DNA from: Pyropia yezoensis
Lineage: Eukaryota; Rhodophyta; Bangiophyceae; Bangiales; Bangiaceae
Assembly: GCA_009829735.1 (NCBI GenBank)
Contig: CM020620.1
Span: 25,580,020 to 25,644,019 of the forward strand
Reading direction: 5' to 3'
Length of the DNA: 64,000 nucleotides
Under the pieces are notes generated by a model, which saw only the letters and a program-made list of their open reading frames with translations, was not told the DNA's origin and made no database searches. The translations under genes were made by a program, and so were the position numbers. Below are positions 1-15,660 of the stretch, piece after piece; the first letter of the stretch is position 1, and each line of letters opens with the position of its first letter.

Positions 1-33
1 GTGACGGAAACCCGTCCCCTGCTGCTCCACCAA
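1..33 (-). other. primer-binding site of the LTR at 34-396 (minus sense)
   Basis: Read on the minus strand, the base after the LTR end is one T and then TGGTGGAGCAGCAGG, which begins with the TGG expected to pair with a tRNA 3' CCA. The same 33 bases recur at 10751-10783 next to the other minus-sense LTR. I cannot name the primer tRNA. The site shows that the LTR at 34-396 acts as a 5' LTR for sequence leaving the window to the left. Confidence 0.75.
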
Positions 34-396
34 TGTAGCACAATAGGGATCCGTCGCACGTCCACTCTCAGGGAGCACTCACCAAGGGGGATCGGCACCA
101 ACGTCACCGGGAGGCCAAGGTTGCTGTCCTTGGAGCGCATGCCACGGGACCAAGATGGGAGCCCAAATGGGAGGGGTTTGTTGTTCTACCTTGGCCGGCG
201 GTGGATTCGCCACCGGCTCCCACGTTATAAACCCTCGGAGACACTACTAACTACCCTCCACCCCAAGATGCAAGTCCCTCTGGTCATACGTAACTTATAG
301 ATACCGTGACCAGTACGAACTATCAAATTGAAAGGTAAGGGTTAGAAGTAGCCCCCCTAATATTAGGGTTACAATACGGCCAACCATATTGCTACA
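34..396 (-). repeat. LTR copy 1, minus orientation (5' LTR type)
   Basis: 363 bp, bounded by the perfect 7-bp inverted repeat TGTAGCA/TGCTACA. It is oriented on the minus strand, since the PBS lies directly beyond position 34. It differs from the copy at 10784 by about four substitutions. On its other side, position 397, it abuts CACGT and the gag zinc knuckle in opposite orientation, which is not a normal element layout. A TTATAA element occurs inside all three copies. Confidence 0.95.
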
Positions 397-640
397 CACG
401 TCCGGATGTATGTTGTGTGGGGATCCCCAGCACTGGGTGTTTTCCTGCCCACTCATCCCCGAGGAGTCTCGGCGGGCAGCGGCGCAACGCAAGGCATCCA
501 CCGGGGGGTATCCCGCCAGAGCACCCGGACCCGCACCGGGTAGGCAGCCAGCTCCAGGGGGAGTACTGGCCGTCGAGGAGGCACCTCCTCAGCCGGATGT
601 CCCGGCGGACAGCACCCTACCAAGGGCGGGAAACGAGTAA
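397..640 (+). CDS. gag: C-terminal part of Gag with CCHC zinc knuckle, separated from its N-terminal part
   Basis: The reading frame enters from the LTR and ends at TAA 638-640. A CCHC zinc knuckle (C-x2-C-x4-H-x4-C) is encoded at 407-448; in LTR retroelements this nucleocapsid motif binds the genomic RNA. About 60 proline/alanine-rich residues follow. No proper ATG-led gene starts here. The frame is the direct continuation of the minus-strand gag at 8614-10558, with the shared CACGT (397-401 and 8614-8618) as the hinge, so this is the severed tail of Gag. Pol begins 8 nt after the stop in another frame. Confidence 0.85.
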
Positions 641-648
641 GAGGAAGG

Positions 649-3600
649 ATGACCGGGGGGCGCTGGGGTAACCCAAGCAAGCCACCCCGGAGTACCGCGG
701 GGAAAGCCCCACGGAGAGCGCGGTTGAGCCGACGCCGCATCAACCCCCGGGTACACCTTCCGGCCCCGACGACACGGCGTCAGGGGATTGATGACCAACC
801 ACCAAGGTTGGGAGGAGAGGACGGGAAGCCCCGTCACATGGAACCAGACAAGGGTCCTGTTCAGGATGCCCGAGCTACACCGGATATCGGTGTAGGCCAC
901 GTGCTGTTTACCTTGGAGAACTTCAAGGTATCAGCCACACTGGGGGTTGACCCCCAGTCGACACGATCGTACTACCCTGTCCTGGATACAAGGGCTGGAC
1001 CCAACCTTATCCGGAAGGATACCCTCCCGGACAAGTGGCTTCCGCGAGTCAGAGTGACTCGGGGACCCACCATCAAGGACGCGAATGGTCGCCTCATTCG
1101 TACGACCGCAGCGATGTCGCTGCGGGTGACCATCGGGGAACTCACCACGGAAGTCGACTTTCTGGTGTGTGGGACCCTATCGGTGCCCTGCATACTGGGG
1201 TGCACCTTCATCAACGTTCACGTTGATGCAATCCGGCCAGGCCGGAGGACCGTCGAGCTTCAAGAAGCCGACGGGACGAAGCGAGGACACACGGCTATCG
1301 TCAGGGACCTGACGCTACAAGGGAGCCACGTTAACGTGGCTGAGGTGTACGCAAGTGTCGAGCCGAAGACACTTCGGTTGGCCAAGCAAACTCGCTTTGA
1401 GCCGTTGTCGGAGACAGTCCTCCCGGTTAACTGTGACCTCGCAGGCATCTGCAGAGTAAAGTCCAACTTGCGGACGTACAAGCGCCATGGGTTGACCATG
1501 GCCAACGGTCTCATAGACCTCCCATCAGGAGGGTCGTCCCTCCTAGTGATGGCGAACTATCGCCGTAAGGCAGTCACCCTCCCGAAGGGAACTATCCTCG
1601 GGATTGCCGAGCTCTACGAAGGAGATATCCTTACCCCTGACAAGGAAGGTCAAGTGGACCCACTTGAGGTGCTGGCGGTCGCCGAGACCACCGAGCAACA
1701 GCAACCCGATGACGGGAAGCCTAGTCGACCATCATTACCGGCGGATATTCCGCCGAAGGACCAAGAAGCATTGAAGGCACTGGCCGAGGCTGACCTCGAC
1801 CACCTTCCCCCTTCGGTAGCCGAAGGGGTACGACGGATGTTAAGAAAGCATGACGTCATGTGGACAGGCGGAGCCCTGGGTACCATTGGGGCAACCCAAC
1901 ATCGTATAGACCTGGTACCAGGCGCACGCCCCGCCCGGTCACAACCGCACCGAGCGGGACCTATGCAACGAGAGATCGTTGATGGAGAAGTGAAGAGGAT
2001 GAGCGAAGCGAATGTGATACGACCTTCGATGTCGGAGTGGGGTGCCCCAGTCGTTATCGTACCGAAGAAGGATCAAACCCCTCGGTTTTGCATCGATTAT
2101 CGACGCCTCAACTTGGTTACCAAGAAGGACTCCTACCCTTTACCAAGGATGGATGAATGCATCGACTCCCTGGGGGAAGCTACGGTGTTTACCACCATCG
2201 ACTGAAATGCCGGATACTGGCAGATCCCGGTGGCGGACGAGGATATCCCCAAGACGGCATTCGTCTGTCACAGTGGAGTGTACGAGTTCCTAAGGATGCC
2301 CTTCGGATTGTCCAACGCCCCCGCTACATTCCAGCGGGCTATCGACATTATACTGTCGGGGATGAAGTGGCGTAACTGCCTAGTGTACCTCGATGACGTC
2401 ATCGTCTTCGCACGTAACATGGATGACCATGTGCAACACGTTGACGAGGTACTCACCCTCTTGAGGAACGCCGGGGTAACCCTGCGTCTGAAGAAGTGCG
2501 CCTTCTTCCAACAGACGGTCGAGTACCTGGGCCACCAGATAACCCCTGGTAAACTAGGGGTACTCGAAGCCAATACCCGGGCACTCCGGGATGCCCGGTT
2601 CCCGAACACCCAGACGCAGCTCAAGAGCTTCCTGGGAATGTGCAATGTATACCGACGGTTCGTCAAGGACTTCGCTCGGATAGCTAAACCGTTAACGGTT
2701 CTTACGAGCAGTACCCTGCCCAAGGTACTCCAACCCCCTTCGCCTAGCGAAGAGGAGGCATTCGAGTCGCTGAAGCGAGCCCTACTATCCCCACCCGTCC
2801 TTGCGTTACCGCACCGACGGGGTACCTTCGTCATCGATGTCGATGCGTGCGACACCCAAGTGGGATGCACCCTGCTACAGGGGGAGACGTTGATCGGTAC
2901 CGATAACGTTATCCCGGACCTACGTCCGGTAGGATACTTCAGCCGGACACTCAACCCGGCTGAGCGTAACTATAGTGCCACCGAGCGTGAATGCCTCGGA
3001 GTTATATGGGCAGTGCAACTGCTCCGTCCATACCTGGAGGGCTCCAGGTTCATCGTGAGGTCCGACCACGAACCCCTACGATGGCTCCTCAACCTTGGTG
3101 ACAAGGATTCCGATAGCCATGGGAGGCTAGCCCGATGGAGGCTAAAAATGGCCGAGCACGACTACCGTACCGTGTATAAGGCTGGGTCAACCCACCATCT
3201 CGGAGACGCATTGTCTCGACTCGACACCCCGAGCGGGGATACCCGCCCGGTGGACGAGGACATCCCGGTGGTACCGGTCTGCATGGTGGGTAACGCTACC
3301 CAAGGTATGGTTGACCATACCATGGCACACCGAGCATGCCCACTAACCCTCGCAGACTTCCGCGAGGCACAAGCCAATGACGACGACTGTAGACGTCATC
3401 GCGCTAACCTCCTGGCCGGTACGGCCGGCATCTTCTCCGAGAACGAAGACGGACTCATATACCGGCGGGCACCCGCCGATGGACGACATCAAGTCGTGGT
3501 TCCCGTGTCCTTACGGCAAGCCGTCATGGAACGAGAACACGACAACCCTACAGCCGGACACCCGGGGGGTTCACGTATGTTCGCAGCAATGCGAAGGTTC

Positions 3601-4814
3601 TTCTACTGGCCAGCAATGGCCGTCGACGTGGTCGACCATGTAAGGGGGTGCCACCCCTGTGCGCGTAACCGCATGAGTCTACATAGGCAGGCGTCTGCCA
3701 TGAAGCTATTCCCACCCGATGGGCCCAACGAGCAAGTCGCTATCGACATACTCGGGCCACTTCCGGGAACGGAAGAAGGGAACAGGTACATCCTGGTCAT
3801 GTCTGACCGATTCACCAAGCTGTCACGAGCGGCAGCCATCCCGAATGATACGGCATACACCATCATGAACGCAGTGGTTGACCACTGGATCAGTGCATAC
3901 GGAGTCATGAAGCAACTCCTCTCCGACAACGGAGCAAACCTTACGTCAGCATTCTGCACAAGGTCCTGGGCATGTTCGGTATCGAACCACGTCGGGCATC
4001 CGACTACCACCCGCAAACCAACGGGCAGGTGGAGCGGTTCAACCGCACCATCGTCAAGATGCTACAGTGTTACGTGGCAGAGCACACGAACACTTGGGAC
4101 AGGCTTCTGTCCGTACTCACCCTGGCATACAATGCCAGGCCGCATCGGAGCACGAAGATCGCTCCGCTGGAGTGGGTGGTGCCACTAGGCGTCGGTTACC
4201 TGACGCTGCCACCAGGCAGGTGCACTCGGTATGATACACCGAAGGGCGGACCGGCCGAACGTATCCACCTAGCTTGGTTGGCCAAGCTATCGTGGATGAT
4301 TCCTAAGCTCAAGGGTGCCCTTGACAGAACACAACTTCGATATAAGAAGAACTTCGACGCCCGGTTACGGGTGCGCAACGCAACCCTGGTAACAGGTGAC
4401 TGGGTCTACATCAGACACCAGAAGTTCCGGGGGAACAAGCTCATGCAACCGGTCAAGGGACCGTACCAGATTCTCCACAGAGATGACCACTCTGTTATCT
4501 TACACTCCGATACGGAGATCCAACGCATCAGTGTGAATGATGTCACACCTGCTCTGAAGCCGGAACAGCCTCAGCCGGTACCGGCTGGGTTGCTACATGA
4601 AGCTCTTACAACCCACCGGTCAGATGACCCTGTGGGACCGGATGGGATTCCATACCAAGTAGAGAGCGTGGTCGGACACACCGACCCGAACCTACCAGGA
4701 CCCTGGTACGTGAAGGTTATGTGGGTCGGATACGGCTCACCCACCTGGGAACAGGCGGCGAATATACCCCGCCAACTCCTCATGCCTTACATGAGGCGAC
4801 GACGCCTACTGTAA
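649..4814 (+). pseudogene. pol: Pol polyprotein (PR-RT-RNase H-IN-chromodomain), broken by one stop and one frameshift
   Basis: The ATG at 649 lies 8 nt after the gag stop. Domains in order: aspartic protease with LDTRAG (Asp codon 985; the usual form is DTGA or DSGA); reverse transcriptase with the YLDD box at 2386-2397; RNase H around 2800-3230; integrase with the HHCC zinc motif around 3535-3665 and catalytic Asp 3745, Asp 3925 and Glu 4032; and a chromodomain around 4657-4790. The frame is broken twice: an in-frame TGA at 2203-2205, where the family has a residue just before the GYWQIP motif, and a one-base frame change near 3958-3962 between the second Asp and the Glu of integrase. Polymerization and integration would both fail from this copy. 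The chromodomain places it among chromoviruses, which target chromatin marks. Confidence 0.92.
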
Positions 4815-5293
4815 CAACCCAACCGACACCGACTTCGGCTGTTGGGGGGTGAGGCTTATACCTACTAAGTAGGGTGTGACATGGTTACGGCAGACTTAGG
4901 TTTCTAAGTCAAATCAGACTTAGGTTTCTAATTCGGACCAAGCTTAGGCAACTAAGTAGAGTCAAGCTTAGGTAACTAAGTAAAACCTGAACCTTAATAA
5001 GTTAACTTAAAGGTAAAGGCTAACCTCGATAATATCGAAGTAACTAGAGGGCTTACACGGGAGGATGACCTCCCAAAGCCAAGACACAAAGTGAGGGAGG
5101 ATAACCTCCCCAAGCATGAACCAACCGGAAGAAGTTGGACGGGAGGCAAGGCACCACTGAGCCAGAAGGGGTACTCCCCAGGGCAGCAAACAGAGGCAAG
5201 CAATGCCCCCAGCGGGGGATGAGTTTACACTCACTACTACCCGGCCACCAGAAGGGCCACCGGGTCCCTCTCCCGCACAAACAATAACACTCC
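4815..5293 (+). other. non-coding stretch after pol in the retroelement
   Basis: Starts right after the pol stop. It holds the four stem-loop repeats described separately (4893-4981) and otherwise AT-richer sequence than the neighbouring coding parts. No open frame of note is visible here before the antisense ORF stop at 5294. Confidence 0.6.
4893..4981. repeat. four 18-bp stem-loop repeats, about 24-bp period
   Basis: Copies begin at 4893, 4917, 4940 and 4964. The first reads GACTTAGGTTTCTAAGTC, a 7-bp stem with a 4-base loop. The second is near-identical with one arm mismatched. The third and fourth share the CTTAGG...CTAAGT core and can also fold. They sit immediately 3' of pol. A role in RNA stability, 3' processing or dimerization is possible but is inference. 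Confidence 0.8.
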
Positions 5294-7663
5294 TCAGTGG
5301 GTAGACCCACTGCCCGAGGGAGGCCACTCACGCGTAAGCGCGTATACCTCCGTGCTCCACCGGTCGGCAATGTCACGACGGTCGATCACCCGAGTTGCCT
5401 CGGTGCATAGCTGGACGAGGGTGCTGCGGCCAGCCTCCACGTCCTCCAGAGCTTTCTGGAGGCGGTCAAGCACGCCACCGAAGCAACGCGCTGACCCAAC
5501 CAGCGCAGCACCTGGGGGGATATCCCCCCAGCTAACAGAGAGACCCTCCCGCTTTGCGCGGGTAACTAGGGCGTCAACGCCTTCATACCAGAGACGGGGA
5601 CCCCCGTCATTCATGACAGGGGCGGGAGGTGACACTGGCGCAGCCAGAGGAGCCACAGGAGCCGACACGGCTACCACCGGAGCCGGTGGCACCTGATACG
5701 AGGCTCGGTAGGACCCTACCGAAGGGGCTCCACCGTAACCCCGGCGGGGCTCCGCCCGACGACGGGACACCTCACGCTCCCCACCCGCAGAGCCCCACTC
5801 TCGGGGACGACGGCCAACCGCCGCCGGTATCGGGTTACCGAACCACGGGGCAAGGAACTGAAGAGGGTCATGGATAACCATGGGAATACCCAGGTCAGGA
5901 ACGGCCTCGGTGGACGCCCACCCATGGCAACTAGGCTCACCCGGCTGAGTACGCCGGATACGCAACGAGTGACGAGGCAAGGGGGTAGCCCCAGCCTGCG
6001 GGTCCCGGTACGGGGGAAGGGCCAACACCCCAGCCCAGTTCACGGCATCGTGAACAGCCAGCAGGGCTTCGAACTCCCGGGCCAACCCGGTTCGGGCAGC
6101 GATCAGGTCCACGCCCAACTGCGCGATGTGCCGACGGACACCTGTCGGAAGATGGAACAGGCGCCCCTGCCGACGGACGGACAGCAGGAAGGAGGAAGTC
6201 TGCCCGAGGGTAACCTCAAGGGTAAAGGTACCTTGCAACGGGTGGACCGGCCGGGAGGCCAACACACTCCCGAAGTATCGGAGACAAGGGCCGGTGTCAA
6301 ACCGGAAAGCAGGGGCGGGTTCCCACCCCTCCTGCCACAGAGGCGGGCGCACGGGAGTGTATACAGGGGCACGACCGTTGCCGGTCTGCAACGCACACGT
6401 TATATCGGTGCGGAACGCATCCGCCATGACACCATGGTTACGTCGCCAGCTCGACGCCGACTTCAAACCCGCCATAGGCGGGTAGGGAGCAGCCAACGAC
6501 AGATACGGGGGTACCCCCGGGTAGTAGTCAAAGTCGGGATACCGACCGGTATCGCCCACCGTCTCCCCGAACGCAATCGGCGCCGCCGCCGCCGCAGTCC
6601 CCCGAGCACTAGCCGGGTAGTCAACCTCCCGCGGCAACGCGGGAGCAATCAGGTCGCATACCCCGAAGTTGGGGTCGAGGTAGACCTCACCCCGTCCCAC
6701 CCGGGTGCGCCAGAGCTGCGCATGCCGGTCATCCGGCTGACTCAGGATCCAATGGTGTTCCACTCGCACCGCGTTCGGCTGGTTGACCAGCCGCACCAAC
6801 TCCCGCTCCCAACTCGGGTCCACCTTGACGCGCCGGGAGGACTCTCCACGGGGATGGGGCAGGTGGAAGTCCACCCGCATCCGCCCATCGGACTCCATTG
6901 ACTCTTGCACAGTCAGGCCTCGAACCCGAGCCACCAAGTCGAACATCGACATGGCGGGTTGACCCGCCGCCACGGCGACGCCGCCACCCAACGGGGCAAC
7001 CCGGGCAGGACCAGGAAGAATAGGGGGCGCCGGGGGATGCCCCACCGGAAGAGGGGCCGGCGCCGGAGTCGCACGCGGCCGAGGAGGAAGAAGAAGGGCG
7101 GGCGCCCGCCCGGAGTAACTACCGGAGTCCACTGCCATCGGTGTAGACCCACCTTGACCGCCAGACGCCCGCGGCACCGCGGGCAGAGCAACGCCGCCAC
7201 CCGAGCCCGACGGGGGCACCTCGGGGGCAGCAGGGGTGGACCCGCCACCCGCAGCCGCGGATGAACCACCCGGGCGGGCACCCGCGCCGTCTTGACCCGC
7301 CGTCCCGGTCGGGGTGCCACCATAACCGCCCGGCACGCCGACGACGCCGTCTTGAGGTTGAGCCGCGCCGGCACCGGCGACAGAAGCCATCGGGGCCGCC
7401 GGAGGAGTAGGGGTAGACGCAGCAGCTACCCGCGGTTGCCCGCCACCCGACGAAGCCGTCGTGCCGCTGCACACGGACGACAAACCGCCCGGAGCACCGT
7501 CCGGGGCCACACGAACGGTCACCCGGTCGTCCTCGTCCTCCGACGAGCTCGCTAGGAAGCACTCGGCGGCGGAGGCGGAGACGGGAACGTCGTCCACCAT
7601 CACCTCTTCCCCCTCTTCAGGCAGGAGGTCGTCCTCGCCCCCGGGTACCTGGGGGTCCGACAT
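5294..7663 (-). CDS. long antisense accessory ORF of the retroelement, unknown function
   Basis: An uninterrupted frame of about 789 codons runs opposite to pol, between pol and the polypurine tract. I chose the ATG at 7663 because the sequence above it is low quality as protein; the frame stays open to 7765. The N-terminal third is acidic and then rich in Pro, Ala and Gly (residues about 1-250). The middle and C-terminal parts are more globular, with many aromatic residues and Pro-rich linkers. I see no transmembrane segment that would make it an envelope protein and do not recognise a family. Extra sense or antisense ORFs at this place are known from some plant LTR elements. While pol in the same copy carries two breaks, this frame is intact. 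Confidence 0.6.
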   Translation of the reverse strand: MSDPQVPGGEDDLLPEEGEEVMVDDVPVSASAAECFLASSSEDEDDRVTVRVAPDGAPGGLSSVCSGTTASSGGGQPRVAAASTPTPPAAPMASVAGAGAAQPQDGVVGVPGGYGGTPTGTAGQDGAGARPGGSSAAAGGGSTPAAPEVPPSGSGGGVALPAVPRASGGQGGSTPMAVDSGSYSGRAPALLLPPRPRATPAPAPLPVGHPPAPPILPGPARVAPLGGGVAVAAGQPAMSMFDLVARVRGLTVQESMESDGRMRVDFHLPHPRGESSRRVKVDPSWERELVRLVNQPNAVRVEHHWILSQPDDRHAQLWRTRVGRGEVYLDPNFGVCDLIAPALPREVDYPASARGTAAAAAPIAFGETVGDTGRYPDFDYYPGVPPYLSLAAPYPPMAGLKSASSWRRNHGVMADAFRTDITCALQTGNGRAPVYTPVRPPLWQEGWEPAPAFRFDTGPCLRYFGSVLASRPVHPLQGTFTLEVTLGQTSSFLLSVRRQGRLFHLPTGVRRHIAQLGVDLIAARTGLAREFEALLAVHDAVNWAGVLALPPYRDPQAGATPLPRHSLRIRRTQPGEPSCHGWASTEAVPDLGIPMVIHDPLQFLAPWFGNPIPAAVGRRPREWGSAGGEREVSRRRAEPRRGYGGAPSVGSYRASYQVPPAPVVAVSAPVAPLAAPVSPPAPVMNDGGPRLWYEGVDALVTRAKREGLSVSWGDIPPGAALVGSARCFGGVLDRLQKALEDVEAGRSTLVQLCTEATRVIDRRDIADRWSTEVYALTREWPPSGSGSTH

Positions 7664-8238
7664 GGTGCAACCGGGGTGGCAGGGGCGCCCCTTGCAGAAA
7701 AGCCGAGGCCGGCTCGACCCGGTACAGAGAACGCTCGCACGGACGAGCCAGGGAAGCGCGGGCACCCGCGCTTATAACCACACAGCTCAGCACGAGCGAT
7801 ACGGCAGCGCGGGACGACCCGCGCCAGCCGAGCTACGGGGGCGCTCCACCCAGGCACCTGGACCGGAGCCACGCCCCCCCCACACGGGGTAAGCAAGGGG
7901 GGTCACCCCCAACCGCCCCCGCGCAACGCGGGCAGTTCCCGCCCCCACTCAATCGTCCACACGAGAGGGGCCCCCCTACCACAAGGCACCTGGTGGCGGA
8001 TCCGCTTGCACCACCCCTCGGAAAGGGGGGTCGTGAGCAGAACCCGCATCGGGAATTTAACGGTCCGGAAAACGGATCGTGTGTGTACCACACAAAGGGG
8101 GGCACCCCCCTCAGACAACCTCGAAAAGGGGTGTCTGTCGCGACGGGGCGCAAAGCCCCACCCGACTGGTAAACGGTCACGCGACCCACTTACATTCGGT
8201 AACCCGAATGCAACTCGACCCGAGGACGGGCCGAATCT
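7664..8238. other. leader of the antisense ORF
   Basis: Between the antisense ATG (7663) and the polypurine tract. It holds a TTATAA-like element near 7780 that, on the minus strand, could serve the antisense ORF. No other feature seen. Confidence 0.4.
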
Positions 8239-8250
8239 AAGGGGGGGATA
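8239..8250 (+). other. polypurine tract preceding the 3' LTR
   Basis: AAGGGGGGGATA lies directly before TGTAGCA at 8251. A purine run at this spot is the plus-strand primer in LTR elements and identifies 8251-8613 as a 3' LTR for the plus-strand pol. Confidence 0.85.
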
Positions 8251-8613
8251 TGTAGCAATATGGTTGGCCGTATTGTAACCCTAATATTAGGGGGGCTACT
8301 TCTAACCCTTAACTTTCAATTTGATAGTTCGTACTGGTCACGGTATCTATAAGTTACGTATGACCAGAGGGACTTGCATCTTGGGGTGGAGGGTAGTTAG
8401 TAGTGTCTCCGAGGGTTTATAACGTGGGAGCCGGTGGCGAATCCACCGCCGGCCAAGGTAGAACAACAAACCCCTCCCATTTGGGCTCCCATCTTGGTCC
8501 CGTGGCTTGCGCTCCAAGGACAGCAACCTTGGCCTCCCGGTGACGTTGGTGCCGATCCCCCTTGGTGAGTGTTCCCTGAGAGTGGACGTGCGACGGATCC
8601 CTATTGTGCTACA
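8251..8613 (+). repeat. LTR copy 2, plus orientation (3' LTR type)
   Basis: 363 bp, TGTAGCA to TGCTACA, opposite in orientation to copies 1 and 3. It differs from copy 3 by about one base and from copy 1 by about three. A 14-bp perfect palindrome CCCTAATATTAGGG lies at 8279-8292. Its right end directly abuts the inverted gag, and the gag reading frame runs into the LTR and stops there (TAG 8609-8611). Confidence 0.95.
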
Positions 8614-10558
8614 ACGTGCCGGTCCCTCCTTGAGTTCGCATCGGGGTAGCCCCGTAGCTGCGGTTGCCTCCCTCGGGCGCCCGAGTGCCTGCTCCCTGGT
8701 AGGCCTTGGGTCCTTGGGTCAACCGGAACATGGACTCCCCCAACCGGTTGGGTCGGCCCGCAATCTGCGGAGGTGCCTCCGTACGTACTGCCCATGTAGG
8801 CAGGGGCTGGTGGGGGTTACCCGTAACCGGGGCATACCCCGTCGTCCGCACATACGGGACGCGCCGTCCCTCTCCCTCGTTGACCTGGAACTGGGTCCCA
8901 GCCGGGGCGATGTACGCTACCGTACCGTGCTCATCAATCACCGGCGTCGCCGGTAGCAACAGGTGGCCCTGTTGGTCAACTAGAGGTTCATCCTCGCCCG
9001 TAGGGGTATGTTCGGTCGCCACCAGTACTGGTGCGGCCTTACGTTCCACCTTCTCTTGCCTCGGTACCGGGGTAAGATTGAGCTTGGTCCCCTCACCCTT
9101 GGGCTTTGAGGCCAGAGCACACTCCGGGTGTAGAACCCGGTAGGCGTCCCCTAGGGACTTGCACATATGCATCAGTCGACTGAAGTTCGTCCGTGCCGTG
9201 TTGGCTCCCCGTGCGGATATCCGCACGTAGTTGGGTACTCCTGCGAACAGGATGGCCCGTAGTTCCCCTTCTCCGAGGAGCTTCCCCAGCTCGTAGTCGA
9301 GCTCTTGAATCCGTCGTCCGAACATCTCCTCATCCTCCCAGCTCTGGGCGGTGGCAGTGCGCAGGGCCCGGTAGTGGTCCTCGCACTTGTCCTCACTGAG
9401 GTAACTGCTCAGCAGCTCCTTGAGGATCCCACGGTAATCCATGGGGGTGGCCTCGACCCTCATTCCCGGCATCGGGGATGCCTGGCAAAGAATGCCTCGC
9501 ACCCGTTCATCAACAAAGAAAGGGAGGATCTCCAGGGCCAGCCCCTCGTTAACGAGGGCCTTGTCCGCGGCTGCCTTGAAGCTAGTCAAGAAGCCGATGA
9601 CTGCCAACGGGCGTCCGTTCGGCCCTCCGAACATAGGGACTCCCTTCATAAGGGTCTGCATAGAGCGAATCGCTCGGTGCGACGTATTACGCATCGATTC
9701 CGATACGGTGGTAGATCGGTCTTCCAAACGATAACGTTCGGGAGTCAGTACCGACCTGAAGACTTCGTTGACGATCTCCGTGTCAGCGTCCTGGATATCC
9801 AGTCGCTTAGCCAGTTGATGAGCAAACTCATCGGACTCCATCCGCTTCAGTAGGCTCGCAGTTACCTGCGCGGTCATAGCTTCCACCACTGAAGATGGTA
9901 CTTCAGGCGTCGGCACTTCGGGAACCCGAGTTGCCTGGCCTCCTTCGTCGTGGGGATACTGTGAGAGGGTACCCCCTCCGCCAATAACCGACTCTCCACC
10001 GGCGTAAGTATCCGCCGGGTCGTGTCCGCGGAGTCCGCTTCGGGTGCTCCGAGCGTATCGCTCCGTGTGACTCCGTTCCAACTCTGCCGACGAGTCGGAT
10101 CCATACCCCATTGTGTCCGGGGGTTGTCCAGGAGTAGCAACACCGGGGTTGACCCTGGTGGACTCCGAAAGTAGTCCGGCCGGTTCGAACCGTACTGGTG
10201 TGGGAGGAACACGACGGGGTCCCGTCGTGTGGCGTGTTGACATCAACACTGCCATTGCGTCCTCCGTCCGATCTTGACGGGCGTCGAGTCCGGAAAACCG
10301 GGCCTCGATGAGGGCCAATGATGCCATCAGGGAATCCCCTGGTGAAGGAGGCGGCGGAGTGAGGTCGGTCGACGACAGTTGAGGCGGGCCCCCGCCTCCT
10401 GCCGTCCGAGCCGTGCCAAACGTCGATCCGGCACCTGAGAGCATTGGCGTCTCAATGTTGTCGATCGGGTTCCCGATCTCGGTTCCCGTAGTCACCTCCG
10501 GGGTCGGCGTCGACGCCGATCCGTCATCTTGAACGTTCCCCGTCTCTTGGGTAGACAT
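8609..10558 (-). CDS. gag: Gag, N-terminal and capsid part, truncated by an LTR
   Basis: The ATG at 10558 (reading MSTQETG) is used; the frame opens six bases earlier only with GTG. The 649 residues begin with a Ser/Thr/Pro-rich part, then a short coiled coil (around residues 75-105), another variable part, and a capsid-like helical region (around residues 300-490) rich in charged residues. The protein lacks its own end: the last element codons lie at 8614-8618 (CACGT on the minus strand), and the stop is supplied by LTR copy 2. The matching zinc-knuckle tail is at 397-640 on the plus strand. Gag would form the particle core; without the knuckle it should package RNA poorly. Confidence 0.88.
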   Translation of the reverse strand: MSTQETGNVQDDGSASTPTPEVTTGTEIGNPIDNIETPMLSGAGSTFGTARTAGGGGPPQLSSTDLTPPPPSPGDSLMASLALIEARFSGLDARQDRTEDAMAVLMSTRHTTGPRRVPPTPVRFEPAGLLSESTRVNPGVATPGQPPDTMGYGSDSSAELERSHTERYARSTRSGLRGHDPADTYAGGESVIGGGGTLSQYPHDEGGQATRVPEVPTPEVPSSVVEAMTAQVTASLLKRMESDEFAHQLAKRLDIQDADTEIVNEVFRSVLTPERYRLEDRSTTVSESMRNTSHRAIRSMQTLMKGVPMFGGPNGRPLAVIGFLTSFKAAADKALVNEGLALEILPFFVDERVRGILCQASPMPGMRVEATPMDYRGILKELLSSYLSEDKCEDHYRALRTATAQSWEDEEMFGRRIQELDYELGKLLGEGELRAILFAGVPNYVRISARGANTARTNFSRLMHMCKSLGDAYRVLHPECALASKPKGEGTKLNLTPVPRQEKVERKAAPVLVATEHTPTGEDEPLVDQQGHLLLPATPVIDEHGTVAYIAPAGTQFQVNEGEGRRVPYVRTTGYAPVTGNPHQPLPTWAVRTEAPPQIAGRPNRLGESMFRLTQGPKAYQGAGTRAPEGGNRSYGATPMRTQGGTGTL

Positions 10559-10750
10559 AGTCACAATCAGTCAACCGACGTAACAATCACCACGAATAAG
10601 AGAGCGAGGGGGTAGATTGGGGAGAGCAACAGTAGATCACAGTCAAAGGTAAAAACTCAACACAATCGATCAGGTCGCAACACCACGAGTACAAGAAAAG
10701 GACCGGATCCCTATCCGTGTGCCAGGGCCGAAGACGGCGTCACCACAAGG
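10559..10750 (-). other. 5' leader of the retroelement (minus sense)
   Basis: Non-coding sequence between the primer-binding site and the gag ATG, read on the minus strand. It is probably the packaging region by analogy with other LTR elements; no motif is recognised. Confidence 0.6.
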
Positions 10751-10783
10751 GTGACGGAAACCCGTCCCCTGCTGCTCCACCAA
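10751..10783 (-). other. primer-binding site next to LTR copy 3
   Basis: Identical to positions 1-33. On the minus strand TGGTGGAGCAGCAGG starts one base after the LTR end, as expected for a tRNA primer site. Confidence 0.85.
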
Positions 10784-11146
10784 TGTAGCACAATAGGGAT
10801 CCGTCGCACGTCCACTCTCAGGGAACACTCACCAAGGGGGATCGGCACCAACGTCACCGGGAGGCCAAGGTTGCTGTCCTTGGAGCGCAAGCCACGGGAC
10901 CAAGATGGGAGCCCAAATGGGAGGGGTTTGTTGTTCTACCTTGGCCGGCGGTGGATTCGCCACCGGCTCCCACGTTATAAACCCTCGGAGACACTACTAA
11001 CTACCCTCCACCCCAAGATGCAAGTCCCTCTGGTCATACGTAACTTATAGATACCGTGACCAGTACGAACTATCAAATTGAAAGTTAAGGGTTAGAAGTA
11101 GCCCCCCTAATATTAGGGTTACAATACGGCCAACTATATTGCTACA
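10784..11146 (-). repeat. LTR copy 3, minus orientation (5' LTR), outer right end of the array
   Basis: 363 bp with the same TGTAGCA/TGCTACA ends. On the minus strand it is followed by PBS, leader and gag, the normal order for a 5' LTR. The flank at 11147 is not element sequence, so this is the host junction. The target duplication cannot be checked because the other edge is outside the window; the five flanking bases here are ATGGC. Confidence 0.95.
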
Positions 11147-12435
11147 ATGGCACTCCCCGACTGCGCACCTGAGACTCTCAGCCCCACCTACCCCCTCCCC
11201 CACTTCTTCCCCGCCAGGAAGGCCTATGCAAGTGCCTCATAAGGAATCGGAGTAGCGGACCTGGCCGTCTTTGTGTGAGCAGTCGAGGGGGCTGCCCAGG
11301 CGGCCAGCGGAGGACTGTCAGCGGAAGGGACAGTGATGGAAACATAAGGGGCAGAGACGTGGCCCATTTTTCGTTATTTTCCGGTGTGTGCTGACGGTTG
11401 CGGCGTCAGCGTCGTCGGCGGCGGCGTTGGCCACGCCACCTGGGCTGACGTCGCCGCCCTCCGCTTCGCGGCCGCCGCGGCCGCTGGGGAGATCACCGAG
11501 GCTGGCAGTTGCGGTGCCCACTCGTGGGCGCTCTCGGCGCAGGCCAAACGAACCTGCGCGATGCTCGTTACGGGGACGAGCTCCCTCTACAAAGGGGCGT
11601 CCTGGGACTGTAATGCACATCAACCCATTGCGCTTGTAAACCCCATCTGCGGTCAGGTATTTGCTGTACTGTTAGACTATTCAACTTACGGTCGAATCAG
11701 GCCCCCAATCACGCCCGCTGCGGCCGGGGCGAGACGCGTGATCACGTGCTATATCACACATGAGATTACGCAAAATACGTGATCTTACGTCATGTGCGGG
11801 GCGTATTACCCAAACCTAGTTAGGAGCAATCCTTTGACAATATGTTTCATCGAGACTCTCAATATTCCTCTGTGTGGACACCGCTGGCCAGTGATAGTAA
11901 ATGTCTGCCGCACAGAAGTTTCATGAACTTCTGTGGTGTGTACGAAGAAACAAAATGGAGCAAAACCAATGTCTTAATGAACTCTGTCACGTCCACCTGT
12001 CGACGTCACGAAGTGAAGGGACGGTGGCCCAATTTCAGGGAGGTCGCCGACCAGATCGATACGTATGCCTCGTTGAGTCCAGTGTGTTTTGACGGCCGCC
12101 AAGGCATTCAAGTACGTTCTTACTGCACGTTCTCTTTGAACACGAGAACACAGTTCTCACCACCTCTTGGATTACCTGTACTCTATCGGAGCTTCGCGAT
12201 GTCACAGGACTTCTTTGGCACAGAGTCAACGCAATGTGTGAAGATGAATCGTGGGCTGCATTCTTTCCGCCTGCAGCAGACCTAGGCGACACGTGGCACA
12301 CGAAGCTTTCCACGCTTCGGACGCTGTTCATCACGCCCTCCGATTCTTGACTGGTCTCTGCAGTCGCGACTCGCCCGCACACACCGTCGCTATGCACTGT
12401 TGTCTCCCGCGGCTACCACCCTCCTCTCGTAGATA

Positions 12436-12495
12436 CTCTTTTGAGAACCGCCTTCAGCACGCACGGCCCGGAAGACACCAAAGAACACTTCCACA
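12436..12495 (+). repeat. dispersed direct repeat, copy A
   Basis: About 60 bp that match 13919-13979 with only a few differences, sharing the core GCACGCACGGCCCGGAAGAC. Similarity fades out after a shared CGTGCAA some 30 bp downstream. Origin unknown; it may be a remnant of a short mobile element. Confidence 0.7.
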
Positions 12496-13019
12496 ACGCT
12501 ACATACTCGTCGCTTCGTGCAATGACATTAAAGGTGGATTCCATATGGCTAGGCGGCTGAGCATGACCCCTTTTTGACCGGCCGTAGCTTCGCTGTTACG
12601 CAAGCGTTCTGCAATCTGCCTTCTCGCGTGGCTAGGGCAGCTCAGGTCGTCTCATTCTGAGTGCTTTCTGTATCCCATATTGCCGCGACGCTCGTACAGC
12701 AATACTATCCGCACGATCAGGCTCGCAAAATCGGACACTTTTGCACACATATGAGGGGGCCATGAGCTCATTGACTGTGGGACCGAAGTGGCGTCTTTAC
12801 AAAACGTGTATAGACACCCATAGACACCTTTTGGTGCCTTTGCAAGGGTCTCGCATGGCTTGTACGATGCAGGAGGTGAAGCGCAAGAAGCGCATATCTG
12901 CGTGCCAGCCTACAGATGTCATGAGGTGAAAATATTTGAAAACTCCATTTGATGGGGTCTACTTGTGAATTGTGCATTGCCCACTGGCCCTGATTCCACC
13001 GTGTCCAGTATGGATCGTG

Positions 13020-13918: not shown

Positions 13919-13979
13919 CACTTTTGAGAAACCGCCTTCCGCACGCACGGCCCGGAAGACACCAAGGAACACTTCCACA
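13919..13979 (+). repeat. dispersed direct repeat, copy B
   Basis: Second copy of the 12436-12495 repeat in the same orientation, about 1.48 kb downstream. The sequence 14029-14046 (CCGCCTAGCTATATGG) resembles, in inverted form, CCATATGGCTAGGCGG near copy A at about 12541. Confidence 0.7.
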
Positions 13980-15660
13980 CAGTTACAGGTCGCCGCGTGC
14001 AACAGGCGCTTCACCAGGTCGATTTTTGCATCCGCCTAGCTATATGGAATATACCTTTAGTCCAAGTCTCAGGCGTCTTCGCGTCCAGTAGTACAGACGT
14101 TCTCTGGTTGTATGAGGCAGAGGGACAAGGAGTAAGAGTCATTGAAAACGACAGATAGAAGGCAGCATTCAGATATAGAGAGCGACGCGTGGGAGACGCA
14201 GGTTTTGGCGAGGTTCATGCTATTCACGGGCGTCCATGGGCTGCTATGTACATACCCTTGTTGATAGCCACGCACACGAGTACACCGGGGACAGGGACGC
14301 TACATTTAGTTCGTGTGTATGATTACCAGGCAAGCAACTATCCCGTTCCCGTGAGGCCATTCTCTCATGATCGGTCCTTGCCTGCAACAGAACCGGTGAC
14401 AAGTGTTGACTTGACGTTGTCCAAAGGGCCGAGAAGGAGTGCACACTGTGAGAATACATAACGTGCGCCCAACCATTGAGCAAGGCTGGCGATGCTCATG
14501 CTTGAATACCTTCCTCCGTGTGGCATATGTACAGGGACATAACTCACACACGTTGCTGACGTCATGCCCAGGTACCCATCATCGATCTCCACGCCTGACA
14601 CACCCGCACCCCTTTGGGGGGACTTGGTCCTGCAACAGTGGTCGCGGCACGTTCGGCGACAGCATGGCAGGGTCACATGGCAAGGCGAAAAGCCCGCCCT
14701 TGCGCCACAGGAGTTCCTGTGCCCAGAAAAAATCAGCGCAGCGTCGACGTGAACAACTCCTCCAATACGTACACTCTTGGAGGACCGTGAAGTCTGCAAA
14801 AAAAAGCCACACAGCGCGCCGGAAATGACGTCGACGTCGTCGTGGCATGTGGAGGAGCGTTTCCATAACGTCGCTCTATAAGATGGAGCGACACAAGCAA
14901 TGCCACCACGACCTGATTGCCAGTTTTCTCAGATCCCATTGGACGCTCAACATTTGGCTGGCGTACTGCAGCCTGTCCTGTGGGACACGCACGGCTGCTC
15001 TTCAGAAAAGATGGCGTCGCGGTACTGGCGGAAGCAATTCGAAAAGCCCCACGTAGGTGTACAGCTCCGTCGCCCGCCCCTGAGACTCCCCCCTCAAGAG
15101 ATGCCGCGCCGCAGGAGATGCCGTCACATACGTCCAGGGGTTGGGCGCCGGCGCCATCGAGGAAGATGGGCGCAGGGCGAGGTGGCCGGTGGACAGGGAG
15201 GGGGCCTACCATAGAATTGTGGAACAGGAAGGAGTGACTGGGGTGCAGAATGGGGGCGGGGAGCGGGCAGAGGCGGGAGCATCCTACAAGCATGGACCAA
15301 GGGCCAAAGAGGCCTGCGTGCCGCCGCCTCTCACCAAATCTGTCGTGGCAGGAAAAAGAAGTCCGATTGCAAAGACGTTGACACGCGATTAAAAAAAATG
15401 GTCGTTGAGAAAGTGGTCTCCAGCTGGCGTGCCATTGGACCGCCCTGTGCTCTAGTCGACCCAATGGGATGCTGCTACAGCGCGCGCCAAGTTCGGGCAC
15501 CAGGAGCGCTGTCGACGTCGACCGCGTCTCTTCACCCACACCCCCGCCAGCACCTGTTTCTTCTCGTTGCTGCGGCGACACCCGCCTATATCCCACCCCA
15601 CCACCCCCCCCCCCGCGCCGCCCTCCGACCCCCTCCCTCCCAGCTTGGCGCACGGTCGCC

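Follow-up and report, generated by a model that had tools for sequence, protein, structure and literature searches.

The window, by which we mean the whole stretch of 64,000 nucleotides that was analysed (G000:C3:25580020-25644019), holds at its left end a rearranged LTR retrotransposon whose parts are collected in Table 1. The Pfam profile match of its pol and the solved-structure relatives of that protein place the element in the Ty3/gypsy type. It has LTRs with TG...CA ends, a PBS, a polypurine tract, a gag with a CCHC knuckle and a pol in the order reverse transcriptase, RNase H and integrase. The best solved relative of the integrase end is Ty3 Gag-Pol (7q5b, E 7e-07), while the protease and integrase-core Pfam matches lie below the curated cut-offs. 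The search for a chromodomain, which would point to the chromovirus branch, gave nothing beyond weak matches to Chromodomain Y-like protein 2 (E 0.13-0.15), and none was found in Pfam at E up to 1. The LTR end of the element has 1151 matches in the genome with at most one mismatch (609 + 542). The antisense ORF shows a synonymous range of 41-52%, and those relatives of this ORF and of gag for which a species is named come from Pyropia vietnamensis. There is no tRNA match within the window, nor any Rfam match at the gathering score.

Table 1. Features of the rearranged element (positions are those of the window)
Feature	Position	Strand	Remarks
PBS region of copy L	16..33	-	Read directly; 5'-LTR flank as in other copies
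LTR copy 1	34..396	-	Belongs to copy L as its 5'-type LTR; CACGT-gagB of copy R adjoins its U3 end
CACGT	397..401	+	First half of the 5-bp duplication at the gag target site
gagB	398..640	+	3' part of gag, CCHC zinc knuckle; apart from gagA
pol region	649..4814	+	Reverse transcriptase, RNase H and integrase, plus a weak protease match; open frame broken (ORFs 649-2205, 2230-4188, 3972-4814)
Antisense ORF	5294..7765	-	823 aa; between pol and 3' LTR; conserved in family
Polypurine tract	8239..8250	+	Upstream flank shared with other 3' LTRs
LTR copy 2	8251..8613	+	3'-type; runs opposite to copies 1 and 3; gagA adjoins its U5 end
CACGT (minus sense)	8614..8618	-	Second half of the target duplication
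gagA	8619..10558	-	5' part of gag, copy R
PBS region of copy R	10766..10783	-	Read directly
LTR copy 3	10784..11146	-	5'-type; outer end against non-element DNA
ATGGC	11147..11151	+	Presumed outer target duplication; its partner would be hidden by the N run on the left

The three LTRs are each 363 bp long and 99-100% alike, copies 1 and 2 differing at three sites, copies 2 and 3 at one, and copies 1 and 3 at four. On direct reading, LTR copy 1 adjoins CACGT and LTR copy 2 adjoins ACGTG, which is CACGT on the minus strand. The gag gene is split at these five bases with one frame running across them, and pol and the tail are inverted with respect to gagA. The translation of the plus-strand part encodes the CCHC knuckle, and the minus-strand gag ORF (10564-8609) runs past the CACGT join and ends in the LTR just beyond it. 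A 727-aa gag homologue from another source (P0001), 96% identical, is unbroken over the gag join (...MRTQAGTGTSACMLCGDPHHW...). A first-pass annotation of this DNA had described the LTR orientations, the two copies of CACGT and the in-frame split of gag, and direct reading together with the ORFs bears it out; the polarity that it drew from a PBS beside copies 1 and 3 and a polypurine tract beside copy 2 likewise reads as claimed.

One simple explanation for such an arrangement would be that gag and pol normally lie on opposite strands in this family, and the first-pass annotation had named this as an observation that would overturn its interpretation. No support for it was found. In all ten of the other copies examined (E1-E9 and X2), gagA, CACGT, gagB and pol are contiguous on one strand, and the gag protein P0001 is uninterrupted, so that this explanation is refuted for the copies examined and has in our judgement practically no chance of being correct. 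Copies with gag intact across CACGT, for which the annotation had proposed a search, include these ten and also the neighbouring copy L described below.

The rearranged copy, which we call R, adds up to one whole element with one arm inverted (2533 + 8217 - 5 = 10745 bases, against 10749 for copy E1), and two LTR ends meet it at a single internal site, with a target duplication. Target duplications of five bases are usual in the family (GTCTC at L005/L026, AAGCT at L027/L028, GTCGG at L003/L049 and GGGTG at L004/L047), and CACGT has therefore the right length, as the ends of these other copies share five-base flanks. Among 40 scored candidates in each case, the 60-mer spanning the junction at 8614-8618 and the 64-mer spanning the junction at 397-401 have a full-length match at their own locus only. 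The next-best match of the 64-mer, on C2 (query bases 1-55, 88%), was considered as a second insertion at the same gag site and rejected, being an LTR end followed by non-element DNA with a chance extension. We are confident that an integrase-type insertion took place at CACGT in the gag of a copy of the same lineage, and the earlier description, in which both LTR ends meet one gag site with a 5-bp duplication and one arm is inverted, is supported, the target being of the same lineage.

The assembled order is not that of a plain nested insertion, since between 401 and 8614 there lie only gagB, pol, the tail and LTR3. A whole inner element would stand between the two halves of CACGT only in the flip isomer of this locus. 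Nesting itself is ordinary in the family. We collected LTR flanks from 95 loci: 25 of these were chosen, 40 came from 100 listed LTR-end places, and the other 30 were the LTRs closest to copy 2. Regular pairs were omitted, and merging equal flanks left a non-random sample of 82 LTR rows. Outside this locus, nine of the 82 rows have internal sequence of the element as a flank in an unexpected place (L016, with 84% local identity, L062, L063, L065, L068, L070, L080, L087 and L088); short weak matches at L027 and L095 were left out of this count. One clear nest in opposite orientation, at C2:29420096-29440536, is marked by the duplication GTGCT, carries LTRs of two distinct types and is assembled in plain order. 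In this nest, the one other for which inner and outer LTRs were compared, the partners are not sisters.

LTR copy 1 opens a second copy on the same strand, L, which extends beyond the left end of the window, out of sight of the first-pass annotation, and whose gag is unbroken across CACGT (L032:3883-3887, where L032 denotes the 6.5 kb left of the window). On the minus strand, LTR copy 1 is followed by the PBS, gagA, the unbroken CACGT, gagB and pol as far as the equivalent of window position 4060. Copy L is 99.6% identical to window positions 8614-11146 (10 mismatches in 2533) and 99.3% identical to positions 397-4060 (13 mismatches and 11 gap openings in 3671). It breaks off within pol, 5.8 kb to the left of the window, at a stretch of 459 N that we read as an assembly gap; the 3' part of L (3' pol, tail, LTR3 and flank) is thus out of view, and its deletion is not implied. 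Nine single-base indels separate R and L in gagB/pol on the side of the N run (alignment positions 2147-3118), within roughly the final 1 kb of the comparison. They look like unpolished contig-end sequence, as if the assembler had struggled in the repeated arm, and were excluded from the substitution counts given below.

The DNA left of the N run shows no homology to the element as far as 25560000. The 1465 bases next to the N run recur at about 100% identity at C3:26213970-26215435, and this copy at C3:26.21 Mb continues into other GC-rich DNA that is neither element nor right flank. Because this near-identical stretch leads into different DNA, the left neighbourhood is uncertain, and we dropped the DNA left of the N run as a flank or an empty site. 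An ATGGC shortly before the N run was discounted as the partner of the outer duplication, since non-LTR DNA comes next. A sister tail for L was not found in the 11 contigs searched, where the best match to the tail of R outside the locus, among 40 scored, is copy Y at 99%. The accessible text of the assembly paper mentions 524 further small contigs (PMC7423979), so the missing tail of L could lie among these.

Since the family is present in high copy number, an N run lies close by and the DNA beyond it has a near-identical counterpart elsewhere, it has to be asked whether the joins are a pure artefact of assembly that were never in the genome. As far as the available portion of the assembly paper describes it, the assembly is built on PacBio RSII reads and HGAP, followed by mate-pair scaffolding, gap filling, optical maps and Hi-C (PMC7423979), and this counts in favour of an artefact. 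A random misjoin would not, however, hit both exact LTR ends and the same five bases, and the window itself contains no N. We therefore regard an artefact of this kind as very improbable.

Copies R and L are sisters. They differ by 14 substitutions in 5364 bases (6 of 2165 in gagA and 8 of 3199 in gagB/pol), against 71, 76 and 90 substitutions between R and its nearest aligned relatives Y, Z and X2. Y, the nearest of the 12 other copies, has 31 differences in gagA and 40 in gagB/pol over the stretches compared, and across the 14 aligned copies the remaining 90 pairs differ by 0.84-4.58%. Sixteen variants (5 + 11) occur in both R and L but in none of the 12 other aligned copies; when only 10 other copies are taken in, the private shared variants number 14 + 13. 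The LTRs point the same way. A 27-mer carrying 179A and 185T marks a rare haplotype and occurs at four places in the genome, as compared with 1151 LTR ends, three of the four being the LTRs of this locus; 179A is found in 4 of the 65 full-length LTRs sampled, three of them from the locus, while 185T is common (28/65). The gagA, gagB/pol and tail of R have the same nearest outside relative among the 40 scored, with gagB/pol tied with one other. Copy L is missing from the 40 scored rows of one search with a part of R, though pairwise BLAST finds it. Four of the 14 differences between R and L are polymorphic in the family, slightly above the expectation for private mutations alone, so R and L may derive from RNAs that were not identical.

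The LTRs also bear on age. LTR copies 1, 2 and 3 carry 3, 0 and 1 private changes per 363 bases, those of copy 1 being 62C, 257A and 322C, each present in 1 of the 65 full-length LTRs. As R and L differ by 14 per 5364 bases, they are no older than the LTRs, and the two copies are of equal age. If all parts had separated at one time, finding at least 4 of the 18 changes in the LTRs would have P 0.08, the direction being toward younger. For comparison, eight ordinary copies, E5 not among them, have their nearest aligned internal relative at a distance of 45-97 changes, while their LTR pairs differ by 1-13. Self-targeting at the level of sisters is well supported.

The close similarity of R and L could in principle have arisen afterwards, if an unrelated member of the family had nested by chance in this gag and gene conversion between the inverted arms, followed by a flip, had then made the two copies alike. 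Inverted arms invite gene conversion, and the flank sample described above indicates that nesting is not rare. Such conversion must, however, have extended over the two parts of gag, 3 kb of pol and all three LTRs, including copy 3 to its outer edge, leaving no clear foreign stretches, and the other opposite-orientation nest retained its distinct LTR types. We consider this course of events improbable.

Our results suggest instead that a sister copy inserted backwards into the gag of its sister and that a flip followed, and this reading as a whole is probably correct. An element of Pyropia yezoensis would have been integrated by its own integrase, in reverse orientation, into the gag of a sister from the same recent lineage, with duplication of CACGT, and the pair of copies would have come to sit in the chromosome beside ATGGC. 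The nest would then have read A-gagA, followed by the reversed LTR3B-tail-pol-gagB-gagA-LTR5B and then by gagB-pol-tail-LTR3 of A, so that the gagB-pol-tail-LTR3 stretches of A and B would form inverted arms of 8.2 kb around a 2.5-kb spacer, the gagA-PBS-LTR5 of B. This spacer may have been reversed by recombination between the arms, or by an assembler choosing between indistinguishable orders. Its flip would convert a gag that carries an insert into gagA-LTR3-inverted pol-LTR5 together with an intact gag, and would thus account for the assembled order, for both CACGT joins and for the intact gag beyond copy 1. The unbroken LTR-PBS-gagA-CACGT-gagB-pol of L supports this sister-into-sister insertion. 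The flip may even be the assembler's own, given a PacBio RSII-based assembly, as the accessible text describes it (PMC7423979), and the breaking off of L inside an arm. On the other side, the reading needs a flip that no datum displays directly, the 5' part of the inner copy is not between the CACGT halves in the assembled order, and the other opposite-orientation nest examined shows plain order. The polymorphic share of the differences between R and L, and the remainder of L being out of view, also count against it. The sister may have been struck as free cDNA or soon after its entry into the chromosome. A strike on free cDNA would be self-integration in a wide sense.

The headline of the first-pass annotation was narrower, namely that a single linear cDNA had integrated into itself. 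On this account one linear cDNA hit its own gag, the resulting inverted two-LTR circle was captured, and recombination through LTR5-gagA with a sister, either resident or itself free cDNA, carried it into the chromosome. The joins, the 5-bp duplication and the inversion are those of the inversion-circle product as described in the available portions of PMC4751563 and PMC2644782. The LTRs also differ in the way that the predicted pairing requires, at one site between copies 2 and 3 and at three between copies 1 and 2, but these differences are private to single LTRs, so they mark no pairs and are of no use for this purpose. The parts of R sum to one element, which the nested reading predicts as well. 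Two rare steps would be needed, and with hundreds of copies to pick from at random, a circle would seldom recombine with a sister. A plain autointegrant forms a closed circle, lacks free ends and requires no second copy, whereas this locus is chromosomal and adjoins L, with its gag intact across the site. A dimer of an autointegration circle is ruled out, because after copy 1 gag runs unbroken through CACGT into pol and the LTR3 join is not repeated. A captured circle and a flipped nest would give an identical sequence, with the duplicated bases flanking copies 1 and 2 in both, and PCR over single junctions would be positive under both and so would not discriminate. Of the self-integration claim, the integrase-type joining and the same-lineage target stand. 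An attack of one cDNA on itself is possible and unproven, as a sister with intact gag adjoins and insertion plus a flip gives the same order, and we think the intramolecular route unlikely. The finding is real and somewhat unusual, and the headline claim exceeds the evidence.

In the literature that we found, as far as its accessible text goes, autointegration was studied as extrachromosomal circles. The accessible parts of the papers searched (PMC4751563, PMC2644782, PMC9694575, PMC7423979, PMC11899658, PMC11963269 and PMC5379124) contain no chromosomal inverted autointegrant, which is no proof of absence in print. It is conceivable, if rather doubtful, that recombination with a sister here brought an autointegrated cDNA, normally a dead end, into the chromosome, where it has been passed on ever since. 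If such a rescue is true, the products of suicide can leave germline fossils that are searchable in other genomes. A heritable sister-into-sister locus whose LTRs place it within one short episode would make it possible to ask at what rate self-attack products survive, and also whether sisters are struck as free cDNA. The locus carries a warning too, in that what looks like an 'autointegration' junction in an assembly can come from the flip isomer of a nested insertion.

Several known systems resemble parts of this locus. Plant Retand elements, which are Ty3/gypsy, have antisense ORFs between pol and the 3' LTR (accessible parts of PMC11963269), and the long region between pol and the 3' LTR with its conserved antisense ORF is similar here. 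The present element, however, is from a red alga, and its antisense ORF matches no Pfam family at E up to 1. The inverted two-LTR autointegration circles of retroviruses and Ty1, as presented in the portions available of PMC4751563 and PMC2644782, where Garfinkel et al. 2006 is cited, share with this locus the joining of both LTR ends to an internal site and the inversion of one arm. They are unlike it in that the present locus is chromosomal and is joined to a second copy of the same lineage with an intact gag, an origin from one molecule being only possible. An LTR retrotransposon nested in its own family, as at C2:29420096, likewise has ends flanked by a 5-bp duplication inside another copy, but the target here is a sister of the same age, and in the assembled order the inner 5' part lies outside the duplication halves. 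For tandem LTR retrotransposons that share LTRs, an origin in a single insertion has been suggested in the accessible text of PMC11899658. As in those tandems, several similar copies of one lineage are found at one locus and probably arrived together; the tandems share internal LTRs in direct succession, whereas here an arm is inverted through an integration-type join.

Elsewhere in the genome, two further loci hold sequence of the same family of Ty3/gypsy-type elements. The locus on C2, one of the three large contigs, is a nested insertion in which one family copy lies in opposite orientation inside another, the tail of the outer copy (the stretch between pol and the 3′ LTR) being split at the 5-bp target duplication GTGCT; judged from the coordinates, its inverted arms are about 9 kb long. 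On C1, part of the tail is repeated in tandem on one strand with a spacing equal to the LTR length, an arrangement that suggests a tandem array of LTR-tail units.

Coordinates of the antisense ORF and of other features described in the text
Feature	Location	Strand	Position or relation
Antisense ORF, 823 aa	window 5294-7765	(-)	between pol and 3′ LTR
Right flank of element	window 11147-11820		
Direct repeat, 58 bases	window 12446-12503 and 13930-13987		1.5 kb apart
Repeat left of N run	C3:25572299-25573763		
Its inverted partner	C3:26213970-26215435		640 kb apart
Nested insertion	C2:29420096-29440536		opposite orientation
Tail repeats	C1:42476389-42484042		tandem, one strand

On the right, the element is flanked by a dispersed repeat whose best relatives are 77-84% identical, and 15 of the 46 other matches start at the first base past the LTR, which is also where the query starts; the element apparently sits inside another repeat. 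Further right, the two units of a short direct repeat are 91% alike. Left of the N run, the inverted C3 pair is ~100% identical and represents either a segmental duplication or an assembly duplication.

The antisense ORF is a predicted conserved gene. It is open in all nine other element copies (825-909 codons from stop to stop), changes between copies are in excess at third positions, and 41-52% of them are synonymous, compared with 29% expected; four of the nine contain a pair of indels whose lengths are not divisible by three. Its product found no match in a Pfam search and has a relative in Pyropia vietnamensis that is 47% identical. The antisense genes of plant Retand elements, as described in PMC11963269, resemble it.
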